From the NCBI GenBank assembly GCA_019856515.1, contig CP082230.1, positions 3,286,001 through 3,350,000 on the forward strand: a DNA stretch of 64,000 nucleotides, written 5' to 3'. The notes below the pieces were generated by a model, which was given only the letters and a program-made list of their open reading frames with translations, ran no database searches and was not told where the DNA came from. The translations under genes were made by a program, and so were the position numbers. Positions 12,029 to 63,663 of this stretch are shown piece after piece (the stretch's first letter is position 1; each line of letters starts with the position of its first letter). The stretch comes from Prolixibacteraceae bacterium. Its GTDB lineage: Bacteria > Bacteroidota > Bacteroidia > Bacteroidales > Prolixibacteraceae.

Positions 12029-13922
12029 GTGTGCCATGCATGGAAATTAACTAATCGGTGTAAGTCCGTAGTGGAGGTTTGTAGAGCCAACCACCTAGCA
12101 GAAGGCAAGGGTGCTTATCGTGAGGTATAACCTGAAGGAAGCCGTATGCAAAACTCTGATCCGAGGTATACGAATCGCATTAGGCGGTATATAACTGGAT
12201 AAGCTTGCATAACAAAGTAAAGTCCGAATTCTACACGGAGTTTATACCGTAGATGTGGCGGATAGATGGAGTGAAAGTTAATTCCCTTACCATGGGAGAT
12301 CTCACAGGTGGATAGAATGTATTTTCCCTGTCCATTCATAAAAAGTTAACTGTGAGAAGTCAGCCGAGGTCATAGTACTGTAGCCACTTTACAGGAAGGA
12401 CTGAATCTTAAATTGTTCATAATACAGACTGTTACCTAATGAAAGGATCAATGCAGAAAATATCGGAAGATAGCTACTTAAGTGAAGGTAGAGCGGAACT
12501 CGAGAATAACTCAAGAGCGCACACTTTCAAAGGGATAACTGAAGGCATTATGGAAACGAACATTACAACAGATAATTTATTAGAACGTGTCCTAGAATCA
12601 GGTAACCTAAATAAGGCTTATTTACAGGTTTATCGTAATAAAGGGAGTCATGGAGTTGATGAGATGCAAGTGGAATCCTTAAAAGATTATATCAGACTTC
12701 ATCGAGAAGTTTTAATAGCAGAACTACGAGAAGGGAAGTACCTTCCCAATCCTGTACGACGAGTCGAAATACCCAAAGAACCAGGTAAAACACGCCCTTT
12801 AGGTATTCCTACTGTCGTGGATCGAGTTATTCAACAAGCCATTTCACAAGTTCTTAGTCCTATTTATGAGGAACAGTTTTCCAATTATAGCTTTGGATTC
12901 CGTCCGAATAAAGGAGCACATACAGCTATTATAGCCTGTAGCCAAACGATCACATCAGGTTATCATTATGCTATCGATATGGATATGGAAAGATTTTTCG
13001 ATACCGTAAATCATAGCAAGTTGATAGAGATCTTATCACGAACGATAAAAGATGGTCGATTAGTTTCCTTAATCCATAAATATCTAAGAGCCGGAGTTGT
13101 TGTTGAAGAGCAGTTTCAAGAAACAGAAACAGGAGTTCCTCAAGGAGGACCATTAAGTCCATTGCTAAGCAACATTATGCTGAATGAATTAGACCATGAA
13201 CTCACAAGACGAGGTCATGAGTTTGTTCGTTATGCAGATGATATTGTCATCTTATGTAAAAGCAAGCGAGGAGCTACACGCACGATGAATTCTACAATTC
13301 GTTTTATAGAAGATACTCTATTCTTAAAAGTGAATCGAGATAAAACAGAAGTGGTGCGCTACAATCAGATTAAGTTTCTTGGCTACAGTTTTTACAAAAC
13401 AAAAGGTGTCGTTCGTTTTCGATTGTCGAAAAAGACACAACGGAAAGTGAAGCGCTCTTTGGAAGGAATTGTAGCACGGAATAATAGTATTGGTTACGAT
13501 GAAATCAAATCCAAGCTTAAAAGCTATATTCAAGGATGGGTAACCTATTATCGATTGGCAGATATGAAATCATTTCTGAAACAAGTAGATGAATGGCTAA
13601 GACGACGTATCCGTATGGTAATATGGAAATGTTGGAAAAGAGTAAGAACGAAGATGAAGAATTTAATGAAACTCGGAGTTTCGAAGAACAAAGCGTATGA
13701 ATATGCTAATACGAGGAAAAAGTATTGGCGCATTTCAAAGAGTCCAATTCTACAAACGACTATAACGAATAAGAATTTGGAAAAGGCAGGCTATATTACG
13801 CTAAGTGATTATTATCAGAAAGTAAAGCCGTGATTTAGGGAGTCGCCGTATACGAGACCCGTACGTACGGTGGTGTGGGAGGTGTACTGGAAGATAAAAT
13901 ATCTTCCAGCCATCTACCCGAT
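12029..13922 (+). mobile_element. group IIC intron with maturase
   Basis: 1894-nt self-splicing retroelement. The 5' end is GTGTGCC and the 3' end is CTACCCGAT; the ribozyme core resembles, block by block, the Oceanobacillus iheyensis group IIC intron as I remember it (CTGAAGGAAGC, TTGCATAACAAAG, AAGTCAGC..GAGGTCATAGTA, D5 with GTACGTACGGTGGTGTG). Domain V is at about 13841-13877 and has CGC at the catalytic-triad position, typical of IIC. Domain VI is a perfect 9-bp stem (13887-13895 with 13901-13909). A candidate EBS1, ATGCAAAA (12146-12153), pairs over 8 nt (one wobble) with TTTTGTAT (12021-12028) directly abutting the splice site. Domain IV carries the maturase. Insertion directly behind a terminator is the known target habit of IIC introns. 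Confidence 0.93.
12439..13833 (+). CDS. ltrA: group II intron reverse transcriptase/maturase
   Basis: 464-aa intron-encoded protein that helps fold the intron RNA and copies it into DNA at new sites. Reverse transcriptase blocks are intact: GVDEM, LGIPTVVDRVIQQAI, YSFGFRP, DMDMERFFDTVNH, GVPQGGPLSPLLSNIMLNELD and the catalytic FVRYADDIVIL. The maturase (X) domain follows (SYIQGWVTYYRL, residues about 360-371, and ANTRKKYWRISKSPIL near the end). There is no C-terminal HNH endonuclease domain, as expected for the IIC class. The start may be this ATG or the one at 12451. No frameshift or stop is seen, so the element may still be active. Confidence 0.95.
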   Translation: MKGSMQKISEDSYLSEGRAELENNSRAHTFKGITEGIMETNITTDNLLERVLESGNLNKAYLQVYRNKGSHGVDEMQVESLKDYIRLHREVLIAELREGKYLPNPVRRVEIPKEPGKTRPLGIPTVVDRVIQQAISQVLSPIYEEQFSNYSFGFRPNKGAHTAIIACSQTITSGYHYAIDMDMERFFDTVNHSKLIEILSRTIKDGRLVSLIHKYLRAGVVVEEQFQETETGVPQGGPLSPLLSNIMLNELDHELTRRGHEFVRYADDIVILCKSKRGATRTMNSTIRFIEDTLFLKVNRDKTEVVRYNQIKFLGYSFYKTKGVVRFRLSKKTQRKVKRSLEGIVARNNSIGYDEIKSKLKSYIQGWVTYYRLADMKSFLKQVDEWLRRRIRMVIWKCWKRVRTKMKNLMKLGVSKNKAYEYANTRKKYWRISKSPILQTTITNKNLEKAGYITLSDYYQKVKP

Positions 13923-19599: not shown

Positions 19600-19629
19600 A
19601 AAAAAAGGCCCTCTTTTTGAGGACCTTCT
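19600..19629 (-). terminator. leader terminator (attenuator hairpin) upstream of tyrA-aroG
   Basis: On the minus strand AAGGTCCTC, loop AAAAA, GAGGGCCTT (9 bp, one G-U) is followed by seven T. It lies 36 nt after the leader-peptide stop and about 77 nt before tyrA. A GGGAUC just after the leader stop could pair with GGUCCU of the terminator arm (6 pairs, two wobble) as an antiterminator; this pairing is a suggestion only. Confidence 0.85.
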
Positions 19630-19665
19630 ATTTATATTTTGACAATACAAATCTACCCGATCCCG

Positions 19666-19722
19666 TTAGTTGGAGCCGTAATAGTAAAACCAAAAGTAAA
19701 ATGTACTGTTCTGTAGAATCAT
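19666..19722 (-). CDS. aromatic amino acid leader peptide (transcription attenuation)
   Basis: 18-codon open frame on the minus strand reading M-I-L-Q-N-S-T-F-Y-F-W-F-Y-Y-Y-G-S-N-stop: eight consecutive aromatic codons (3 Phe, 4 Tyr, 1 Trp). The stop is 36 nt upstream of a perfect-looking terminator that precedes tyrA-aroG/CM. This is the arrangement of classical ribosome-mediated attenuation (as in pheL or trpL of enterobacteria): stalling when Phe, Tyr or Trp tRNA is uncharged would favour an antiterminator and allow tyrA-aroG expression. An A-rich stretch precedes the ATG, as is typical for Bacteroidota translation starts. I infer its role from composition and position; nothing else in the region explains the codon run. 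Confidence 0.9.
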   Translation of the reverse strand: MILQNSTFYFWFYYYGSN

Positions 19723-19750
19723 TCTATTATTTTTTTAAATGCTTACCCCA

Positions 19751-19758
19751 CAAATATA
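19751..19758 (-). promoter_or_regulatory. candidate -7 element for the leader-tyrA-aroG transcript
   Basis: On the minus strand TATATTTG fits TAnnTTTG and lies about 30 nt upstream of the leader ATG. No clear -33 TTTG is found at the usual spacing. Confidence 0.45.
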
Positions 19759-19812: not shown

Positions 19813-20757
19813 TTATCTATACTTTTCGTCAGAGTCTTCCATCATCGAAATATAGCTGTCATATCTAGTATATGCAATGTCTCCATTCTCTACAGCTTCT
19901 TTCACCGCACACCTTGGTTCGTGTTGATGACTACAGTTGTTAAACTGGCACTCATTCGAATGCTGGAATATTTCAGGGAAGTAATGAGATAACTCTTTTT
20001 TGTCAATATCTGTAATACCAAAACCACGTACACCAGGTGTGTCAATGATATAACCACCATTTTTCATCTCATGCATTTCGGCAAAAGTCGTGGTATGTTT
20101 TCCTTGTTGGTGCACTTCAGATATCTCTGCTGTTTTAATGTCTAAACCTGGTTCAAGCTTATTAATAATGGTCGATTTACCCACACCCGAATGTCCCGAA
20201 AGAACATTAATCTTTCCTGCCATTTTATTCCTTAGCTTATCGATATTAAAATCTTTTTCTGCGGATACTTGAAAACATTCATAACCAGCTCCTTCGTAAA
20301 TGTGTAGATAATCTTCAAGGATTTCATAGTCCTCTTCATTATAGATGTCTAACTTGTTAAATACAAGTCTTACTGGAATCCTATAAGCCTCTGCAGATAC
20401 TAGAAAACGATCAATAAATCCTGTCAACGTCCTTGGGTGTGATATGGTAACAATTAAAAATGCCTGATCCACATTTGCAGCAATAATCTGACTCTGTTTG
20501 GATAGATTTGATGATTTACGAATGATATAATTCTTTCGTGGCTCTATCTTTTTAATTAAGCCAACAGGCTCTTCATTTTTATCTGTAGAATTTACCACTA
20601 GATCAAAATAAACCATATCACCCACAGATATAGGATTGGTAGTTCGAATGCCTTTCGTTCGAAATTTCCCCTTTATTTTGCACAAGTGTAGTTGTCCTTC
20701 ATCGTCTTTTACTGTATACCAACTACCTGTTGATTTAATGACCAATCCTTTTGTCAT
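19813..20757 (-). CDS. rsgA: ribosome small subunit-dependent GTPase A
   Basis: 314-aa circularly permuted GTPase that acts in late 30S maturation. An N-terminal OB fold (about residues 1-75) is followed by the G domain in permuted order: G4 NKLD (in VFNKLDIYN), G1 GHSGVGKST, G3 DTPGVRGFG. The C-terminal zinc knuckle has CQFNNCSHQHEPRC. The ATG at 20757 is chosen; the frame continues upstream to 20850 without family similarity. It is separated from the leader of tyrA by about 55 nt, so the tyrA leader may also receive read-through from rsgA, whose own terminator I do not see. Confidence 0.94.
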   Translation of the reverse strand: MTKGLVIKSTGSWYTVKDDEGQLHLCKIKGKFRTKGIRTTNPISVGDMVYFDLVVNSTDKNEEPVGLIKKIEPRKNYIIRKSSNLSKQSQIIAANVDQAFLIVTISHPRTLTGFIDRFLVSAEAYRIPVRLVFNKLDIYNEEDYEILEDYLHIYEGAGYECFQVSAEKDFNIDKLRNKMAGKINVLSGHSGVGKSTIINKLEPGLDIKTAEISEVHQQGKHTTTFAEMHEMKNGGYIIDTPGVRGFGITDIDKKELSHYFPEIFQHSNECQFNNCSHQHEPRCAVKEAVENGDIAYTRYDSYISMMEDSDEKYR

Positions 20758-21131
20758 ATAAGTGATATTTCTATATTGTTTTTGATTATTTTGGTTCAAA
20801 GTAACAAAAAAACATTCAATGATAGATTCTAATAGTTGGGTTATTCTCAATATAATAGTACCTTGACTCTGCTTTTTGTCTAATTTATATCCTACTCTAT
20901 CTAAACCATGTTAGGTCGTAATATGTTCTATTTTTAACTCTATTATGAATCTTTATTGAGATGCAAACTGTTAAAGTAAACCTAAATCATTATAGTAAGA
21001 ATAGTTTATGCTTTTATTTAGAGCTTGTTTGCCTATTTTTGTTTGTCGATAGAATGGAGAATATCATATAATTAGCTTTTATTTATTAGTGCTGAAAAAA
21101 ATAATAAATACAATAAAAACACTTTCCATAG
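20758..21131. other. divergent intergenic region rsgA / ctpA
   Basis: About 370 nt, AT-rich, upstream of both flanking genes. I see no gene, hairpin or repeat. Promoters for both genes must lie here, but no complete TTTG-N(19-21)-TAnnTTTG pair is convincing. Confidence 0.5.
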
Positions 21132-53326: not shown

Positions 53327-54852
<1,526 letters not shown>

Positions 54853-54989
54853 GGAGCCGACAAGAACGGTTAAAGAAAATCGACGAGATTAGGTTGTTTT
54901 TTCTTGTCATATCAAAAAACCTTATATACCCACATAACCAAAGTGGATAGCGTTAGGCTGAAAAACTAAGGTGGTTATGTTTTAGACAT

Positions 54990-55063
54990 AGTCCCGTAGC
55001 TCAGCTGGTTAGAGCGCTACACTGATAATGTAGAGGTCCCCAGTTCAAGTCTGGGCGGGACTA
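54990..55063 (+). tRNA. tRNA-Ile (GAU), copy 1
   Basis: 74-nt cloverleaf: acceptor AGTCCCG/CGGGACT, D arm GCTC..GAGC, anticodon stem CTACA/TGTAG with loop CTGATAA (anticodon GAT), T arm CCCAG TTCAAGT CTGGG. CCA is not encoded. In the 16S-23S spacer. Confidence 0.97.
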
Positions 55064-55091
55064 CAATCGTAATATTATTTATACGAGGTTA

Positions 55092-55168
<77 letters not shown>

Positions 55169-55220
55169 CACATTTATATTGATTTAGTTAGATTTAATTT
55201 GATTAGATCGGTGTATATAA

Positions 55221-55230
55221 GTTCTTTGAC
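55221..55230 (+). promoter_or_regulatory. boxA-like site, 23S leader, copy 1
   Basis: GTTCTTTGAC in the spacer between tRNA-Ala and 23S. Confidence 0.55.
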
Positions 55231-55301
55231 ATTCTGGAAAAAAGTAATCTGTAAAAGAATACAACAGATATCGAGATTAACATTAAAGGTTAATTATAAT
55301 A

Positions 55302-58177
<2,876 letters not shown>

Positions 58178-58309
58178 AGAACAAAAGATTAGTTGTATTT
58201 AGATTACTTTTTCCAGGAGCATGTCAAAAAGATATATTGAACTATGTATGCTGATAATGTTAGATTATAACATTTAAGTCAGATATAAATAACCGTATTT
58301 AGAATTTAA

Positions 58310-58413
<104 letters not shown>

Positions 58414-58426
58414 GTTTTAGTAAAAG

Positions 58427-58452
58427 ATCAATTCACTAGAGTTGATTTTTTT
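58427..58452 (+). terminator. terminator-like hairpin between the two rRNA operons
   Basis: ATCAATTC (58427-58434), loop ACTA, GAGTTGAT (58439-58446; one G-T pair), followed by a T tract. It lies between the first 5S and the second 16S. Confidence 0.7.
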
Positions 58453-58463
58453 ATGAACTAAAC

Positions 58464-58474
58464 GTTCTTTGAAG
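58464..58474 (+). promoter_or_regulatory. boxA-like site before the second 16S
   Basis: GTTCTTTGAAG, identical to the site at 53226. From here on the sequence matches the first operon; the P1 and P2 promoters upstream of the first copy are not duplicated. Confidence 0.55.
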
Positions 58475-58564
58475 ATTTTTTTTGATAATGACAAGTACAA
58501 AAAAGCAACCGTCAATCTAATAGATTTTTGAGTTTTTGTTGAGCTAAATTAATTAACTTTTTAT

Positions 58565-60090
<1,526 letters not shown>

Positions 60091-60227
60091 GGAGCCGACA
60101 AGAACGGTTAAAGAAAATCGACGAGATTAGGTTGTTTTTTCTTGTCATATCAAAAAACCTTATATACCCACATAACCAAAGTGGATAGCGTTAGGCTGAA
60201 AAACTAAGGTGGTTATGTTTTAAACAT

Positions 60228-60301
60228 AGTCCCGTAGCTCAGCTGGTTAGAGCGCTACACTGATAATGTAGAGGTCCCCAGTTCAAGTCTGGGCGGGACT
60301 A
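60228..60301 (+). tRNA. tRNA-Ile (GAU), copy 2
   Basis: Same sequence as copy 1 (anticodon GAT), in the second 16S-23S spacer. Confidence 0.97.
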
Positions 60302-60329
60302 CAATCGTAATATTATTTATACGAGGTTA

Positions 60330-60406
<77 letters not shown>

Positions 60407-60458
60407 CACATTTATATTGATTTAGTTAGATTTAATTTGATTAGATCGGTGTATATAA

Positions 60459-60468
60459 GTTCTTTGAC
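60459..60468 (+). promoter_or_regulatory. boxA-like site, 23S leader, copy 2
   Basis: GTTCTTTGAC, identical to the site at 55221. Confidence 0.55.
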
Positions 60469-60539
60469 ATTCTGGAAAAAAGTAATCTGTAAAAGAATAC
60501 AACAGATATCGAGATTAACATTAAAGGTTAATTATAATA

Positions 60540-63416
<2,877 letters not shown>

Positions 63417-63548
63417 AGAATAAAAGATTAGTTGTATTTAGATTACTTTTTCCAGGAGCATGTCAAAAAGATATATTGAACTATGTATGCTGATATATGT
63501 TAGATTGTAACATTAAGTCAGATATAAATAACCGTATTAACAATTTAA

Positions 63549-63652
<104 letters not shown>

Positions 63653-63663
63653 GTTTTACAGAG

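Follow-up and report, generated by a model that had tools for sequence, protein, structure and literature searches.

A putative ribosome-mediated attenuator with a Phe- and Tyr-rich leader peptide upstream of tyrA in Prolixibacteraceae

Transcription attenuation by leader peptides is best known from proteobacteria, where it operates in the trp and phe operons. Among the closest described systems are two leader RNA families of this kind, Phe_leader (RF01859) and Trp_leader (RF00513). The first, of the pheL type, is of gammaproteobacterial origin, and the pheL peptide of E. coli is rich in Phe; the second is Trp-specific. A comparative study by Vitreschak and co-workers from 2004 reportedly touches on Bacteroidetes.

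According to a passage in a survey from 2010, no such leader was known outside Proteobacteria and Actinobacteria, besides the atypical ermC leader and the authors' own finding in Firmicutes (PMC2965389). Leader genes across many phyla, Bacteroidetes included, are the subject of another paper, which in the parts consulted names no aromatic leader (PMC4833913). Flavobacterium psychrophilum belongs to the same phylum as our organism and has provided clues to leader-peptide attenuation before amino acid operons: 5′ elements were described upstream of pheA and hisG, and the structured pheA element occurs also in other genera (PMC9723704). The section of that paper on these elements differs from the present case in naming no peptide, codons, antiterminator or tyrA; its pheA element is likely linked to the pheA leaders that we see. 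Among the literature matches listed, as judged from titles and the beginnings of abstracts, none deals with a Bacteroidota tyrA that is preceded by an aromatic leader, and an earlier prediction of such a leader is possible. The attenuation mechanism is already known; as far as we have searched, the tyrA leader is newly documented.

The locus lies in a stretch of 64,000 nucleotides (the window, here always at its full length) from a Prolixibacteraceae bacterium. The genome of this organism is a single contig of 5.19 Mb, and its TyrA is 80% identical to that of the best named relative, a Prolixibacteraceae record. An earlier note on this DNA had proposed an aromatic leader peptide and attenuator ahead of tyrA, and the features that it listed are all present (Table 1). 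The 18-codon frame with F-Y-F-W-F-Y-Y-Y in a row reads directly on the minus strand from ATG (19722-19720) to TAA (19668-19666), the stem of a terminator with a T7 tract follows 36 nt past the stop codon, and the genes for prephenate dehydrogenase and DAHP synthase/chorismate mutase come after it, as their Pfam domains confirm. The promoter-like element noticed about 30 nt ahead of the frame is TATATTTG. Its first base lies 36 nt and its end 28 nt upstream of the leader ATG, and it agrees with TAnnTTTG, the consensus of the Bacteroidota promoter -7 element. A scan of the window for sigma-70-type promoters gave no excess over shuffles (13 sites vs 16.5). Pfam lists no ACT domain for the tyrA product or for the DAHP synthase-chorismate mutase, again as the note had it, and given this absence leader control may be a main regulatory input.

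Table 1. Features of the leader locus in the window and Phe-rich pheA leaders at three other loci of the family
Feature	Position or locus	Strand	Basis or remark
DAHP synthase fused to chorismate mutase, 362 aa	17521..18609	-	Pfam PF00793 + PF01817
tyrA, prephenate dehydrogenase, 303 aa	18612..19523	-	Pfam PF02153 + PF20463
T7 tract of the terminator	19600..19606	-	direct reading
Intrinsic terminator hairpin (5′ arm, region 3)	19603..19629	-	terminator scan; 11 pairs, loop of 5
Small hairpin of 9 pairs inside the antiterminator	19630..19652	-	fold prediction for region 2 through the terminator 5′ arm
Antiterminator 5′ strand (region 2), GGGATC	19659..19664	-	partner GGTCCT, in the terminator 5′ arm
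Leader peptide frame, MILQNSTFYFWFYYYGSN + stop	19666..19722	-	sequence read directly; 18 codons
Control codons F Y F W F Y Y Y (codons 8-15)	19678..19701	-	direct reading
Promoter -7-like element, TATATTTG	19751..19758	-	matches Bacteroidota TAnnTTTG consensus
rsgA, upstream gene, same strand as the leader	19813..20850	-	
Phe-rich pheA leader peptide, MNYFFFSFFKD	L184		
Phe-rich pheA leader peptide, MNAAYRFWFFFFTD	L194		
Phe-rich pheA leader peptide, MKTTKTNASFFFFWFSS	L208		

Sequence comparison makes it very probable that this leader, placed upstream of tyrA and the DAHP synthase-chorismate mutase gene, is a transcription attenuator of the classical ribosome-mediated trp/phe type. The frame, two mutually exclusive helices, their covariation and the spacing are established by that comparison. 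Translation of the leader, stalling of the ribosome, termination and an amino acid response are predicted from it as follows. RNA polymerase would transcribe a short frame full of Phe and Tyr codons, with one Trp codon in our organism. When charged tRNA-Phe or tRNA-Tyr is scarce, a ribosome would stall within the aromatic run and leave GGGATC free to pair with GGTCCT in the 5′ arm of the terminator; the antiterminator so formed would block the terminator, and tyrA and its neighbor would be transcribed. With both amino acids in good supply, the ribosome would move on to the stop codon and cover GGGATC; the terminator would then fold, and transcription would end before tyrA.

Taken alone, the hairpin of the window is not beyond chance, since the terminator scan of the whole stretch found 3 sites vs 1.8 (sd 1.3) in shuffles. 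Leader and terminator together fold at -34.3 kcal/mol vs a shuffle mean of -22.99 (z -3.53), with one of 200 shuffles equally good. The only site in the organism's own genome within two mismatches of the aromatic codon run is the leader locus, and the reversed control pattern also gave one site.

How far is the leader conserved among relatives? A TyrA search of 100 family genomes gave a match in 92, and an ATG frame with an aromatic codon run lies upstream of tyrA in all of the best 30 loci of these. A second set, overlapping the first, consisted of 80 named tyrA loci, of which 79 could be parsed. Most of them are titled Prolixibacteraceae or its genera, and some are titled only Bacteroidota or Bacteroidales or carry other genus names. 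Here the frame precedes tyrA in 78 of the 79 parsed loci. With both sets pooled, 108 of the 109 readable upstream regions have a frame with an ATG start, 8-36 codons and at least four aromatic codons in succession, while 33 of 2180 dinucleotide-shuffled versions of these regions do so; we therefore reject the origin of the aromatic run by chance. The earlier note had named missing conservation of the run in relatives as a refutation of its proposal, and this sequence check did not refute it. The one readable region that lacks a frame (L063) is on a contig ending 288 nt upstream of tyrA, and in the unparsed locus L066, which represents the same place as L155, a GTG-started aromatic frame lies ahead of a pheA-tyrA pair.

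The 108 leaders reduce to 91 distinct sequences. The longest aromatic run has 8 codons in 70 of them, and a hairpin before a T run is present in every one (median -17.8, weakest -13.2 kcal/mol). In 87/91 distinct leaders, vs 6.2% of mononucleotide shuffles, a TAnnTTTG element stands no more than 90 nt ahead of the ATG, its start lying most often 26-27 nt before it. A match to DAHP synthase-chorismate mutase directly follows tyrA in all 79 parsed named loci; such a match exists in 110/110 loci, in the unparsed L066 somewhere within the locus.

The second level of evidence is base pairing. Within the last peptide codons of the leaders lies a strand (CGGGATC, for example) whose complement is found in the 5′ arm of the terminator (GGTCCCG); the window differs in placement, with its strand just 3′ of the leader stop codon. 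The duplex of the window has 6 pairs, 2 of them G-U, and an energy of -8.1 kcal/mol. From the alignment truncated after the terminator 5′ arm, RNAalifold predicted the antiterminator helix unaided. In its columns 614 of 623 cells pair, 23 cells having changes on both sides, vs 26-58.5% paired in controls with one strand slid by 1-3 columns; the helix derives from the same alignment, and these figures are uncorrected for relatedness. The strand pairs with the arm of its own leader at -10.75 kcal/mol, vs -9.86 with exchanged arms and -6.76 for shuffled strands (91 leaders), and none of 2000 exchanged-arm permutations was as low, without correction for relatedness. Between the two antiterminator strands, the enclosed segment folds more stably than its shuffles do on average in 82/91 leaders. 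A possible protector helix between regions 1 and 2 gave -10.33 kcal/mol for own and -9.41 for exchanged strands, again with 0/2000 permutations as low; RNAalifold found no consensus 1:2 helix in the part of the aligned leaders before the terminator arm. By sequence, then, an antiterminator that would exclude the terminator is present and backed by covariation.

These observations bear on a simpler explanation. The rsgA gene lies upstream on the same strand, and the terminator might merely stop readthrough from it, the aromatic frame being incidental. This is very unlikely, and we reject it on conservation and covariation: the promoter-like element stands just before the leader both in the window and in the 87 leaders mentioned, the frame is retained at three loci with a different upstream gene, and the antiterminator covaries with the terminator.

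The RNA itself might also sense an aromatic tRNA or ligand directly, in the manner of a T-box or riboswitch, with the frame left untranslated; an antiterminator with an enclosed hairpin is, after all, a conserved RNA structure. What is conserved, however, is a reading frame of aromatic codons together with a spacing that fits a ribosome, and Rfam reports no T-box or riboswitch, either at gathering scores or among 12 weak matches. Direct sensing is therefore highly improbable. No known Rfam leader matches the leader at gathering scores either. The best weak match of the stretch is Phe_leader (28 bits vs a gathering threshold of 55, E 0.0075). The likeness to this family consists in a leader frame with Phe codons, an antiterminator, a terminator and a position upstream of an aromatic biosynthesis gene. 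The differences are that in our leaders Tyr is as common as Phe, that the target is tyrA with DAHP synthase-chorismate mutase and not pheA, and that the score is far below the threshold. Trp_leader, also a leader-peptide attenuator, matches weakly (20 bits vs 41) and differs in its specificity for Trp.

Rfam also gave some matches of other kinds. Positions 19720-19758 (minus strand) weakly match the S15-Flavobacteria ribosomal protein leader model (27.6 bits vs 46.5), probably by chance. Elsewhere in the window two group II intron matches (RF02001 and RF01998) lie at 12114-12401 (plus strand), and two tandem rRNA operons, each with 16S, two tRNA genes, 23S and 5S, at 53327-63656 (plus strand).

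The attenuator reading also makes demands on distances. The antiterminator strand starts 11 nt past the last aromatic codon in 56/91 leaders and 10-15 nt past it in most others, and 48-65 nt lie between the aromatic run and the terminator arm in the 91 distinct leaders. In E. coli the ribosome shields some 12 nt past the first base of its A-site codon. With a footprint of this size, a ribosome stalled at the last aromatic codon would leave region 2 free in 88/91 leaders, while a ribosome at the stop codon would cover region 2 and leave the terminator arm free in 91/91. The spacing thus fits what stalled and terminating ribosomes would require. In the window, RNA of the stalled state that ends at the terminator 5′ arm folds into the antiterminator (-12.6 kcal/mol), and the state with a ribosome at the stop codon folds into the terminator (-20.8 kcal/mol). 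When the stalled state includes the whole terminator, the minimum-energy fold again contains the terminator (-23.9 kcal/mol), so the switch must be kinetic, the antiterminator forming first. The classical attenuation model has the same requirement.

Taken together, the conserved frame and run, the terminator, the covarying antiterminator and the occurrence of the same design elsewhere in the phylum support the attenuation proposed in the earlier note. Its further suggestion, that one peptide senses all three aromatic amino acids, may go too far. Phe and Tyr codons occur in 91/91 distinct leaders, with residue totals of F 342 and Y 353. Trp, with a total of 74, occurs in the run of 62/91, and leaders with YFYFYFYY and no Trp retain both region 2 and the terminator. 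Moreover, in our organism's own genome trpE is preceded by a leader frame with WLW (MIYIIQNTSWLWLILSQIRDEM), followed by a strong hairpin and a T run (L176:1295-1363), a further difference from the Trp_leader system; Trp probably has its own switch there. We therefore find it somewhat probable that the same attenuator senses Phe and Tyr only, with the Trp codon incidental and Trp sensed before trpE; this is a variant of the main reading and does not compete with it. Against this variant, a single, critically placed Trp codon can be enough to stall a ribosome, and Trp is in the run of those 62 leaders. Trp sensing by the tyrA leader is accordingly uncertain.

Other amino acid genes of this genome have similar frames. 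A His-rich frame, MNFLNHHYGHHHFLPKGRP, lies upstream of hisG (L175:1201-1260), and an Ile/Leu/Val-rich frame upstream of ilvD is followed by a strong hairpin and a T run (L177 reverse complement 1237-1299). The scripted scan gave no thr leader before homoserine dehydrogenase, at a locus that the ORF, from base 34 on, fills for the most part and whose upstream part is hardly covered. The pheA gene (PF00800) is located apart from the tyrA locus, and no leader was found there with strict or loose frame filters. Of 60 family genomes, 59 gave a pheA match, and we analysed the 30 best loci. An aromatic frame precedes pheA in 2 of 25 parsed loci by the strict filter and in 6/30 by the loose one; in three of the 30 we judged the Phe-rich frame with a terminator after it convincing (Table 1).

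It is useful to follow the leader beyond the family. TyrA matches were obtained in 274/392 genomes of the phylum and 58/148 of the order. From the listed matches in these genomes alone we picked by hand, and so not at random, 60 tyrA loci outside the family, the phylum search supplying 40 and the order search 20. Frame and terminator are present in at least 30 of the 60, in 28 cases before a pheA-like gene (recognised by its N-terminal motif and not by Pfam) and in 2 before tyrA. The other 30 comprise 26 in which the script found no frame, 3 with a frame and no hairpin, and 1 that was too short; the count of 30 is a lower bound, because L136 and L138 were scored as frameless although their frames are visible. 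None of the 30 comes from the ten picks whose TyrA matches were weakest (L145-L154). The sequences of the outside leaders differ, yet the antiterminator generally matches its own terminator: own pairing in the 30 leaders is -12.86 kcal/mol, vs -8.35 for exchanged (the lowest of 5000 permutations being -9.99) and -6.34 for shuffled, and 0/5000 permutations were as low as own pairing, relatedness being uncorrected. Four of these leaders pair weakly, namely L132 (-4.7), L166 (-5.6), L142 (-6.5 kcal/mol) and L135.

A broader picture can be drawn, to which we give an even chance. There would be a combined Phe/Tyr attenuator throughout Bacteroidota, a sensor of either amino acid in one peptide, which in many families would head an operon of pheA, an aminotransferase gene and tyrA. 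The Prolixibacteraceae would have kept it with tyrA and DAHP synthase-chorismate mutase, with pheA set apart, mostly leaderless and having a Phe-rich leader in a few genera. The RNA would form an undescribed family of Rfam rank, whose antiterminator strand lies mostly inside the last peptide codons.

The leader provides support, at the level of covariation in sequence, for a leader-peptide attenuator in Bacteroidota. It also yields an exact testable prediction for the control of the Phe, Tyr and common-pathway genes. If one peptide does sense both Phe and Tyr, then such a mixed sensor would be a case in which to ask: How do several amino acids share one attenuator?
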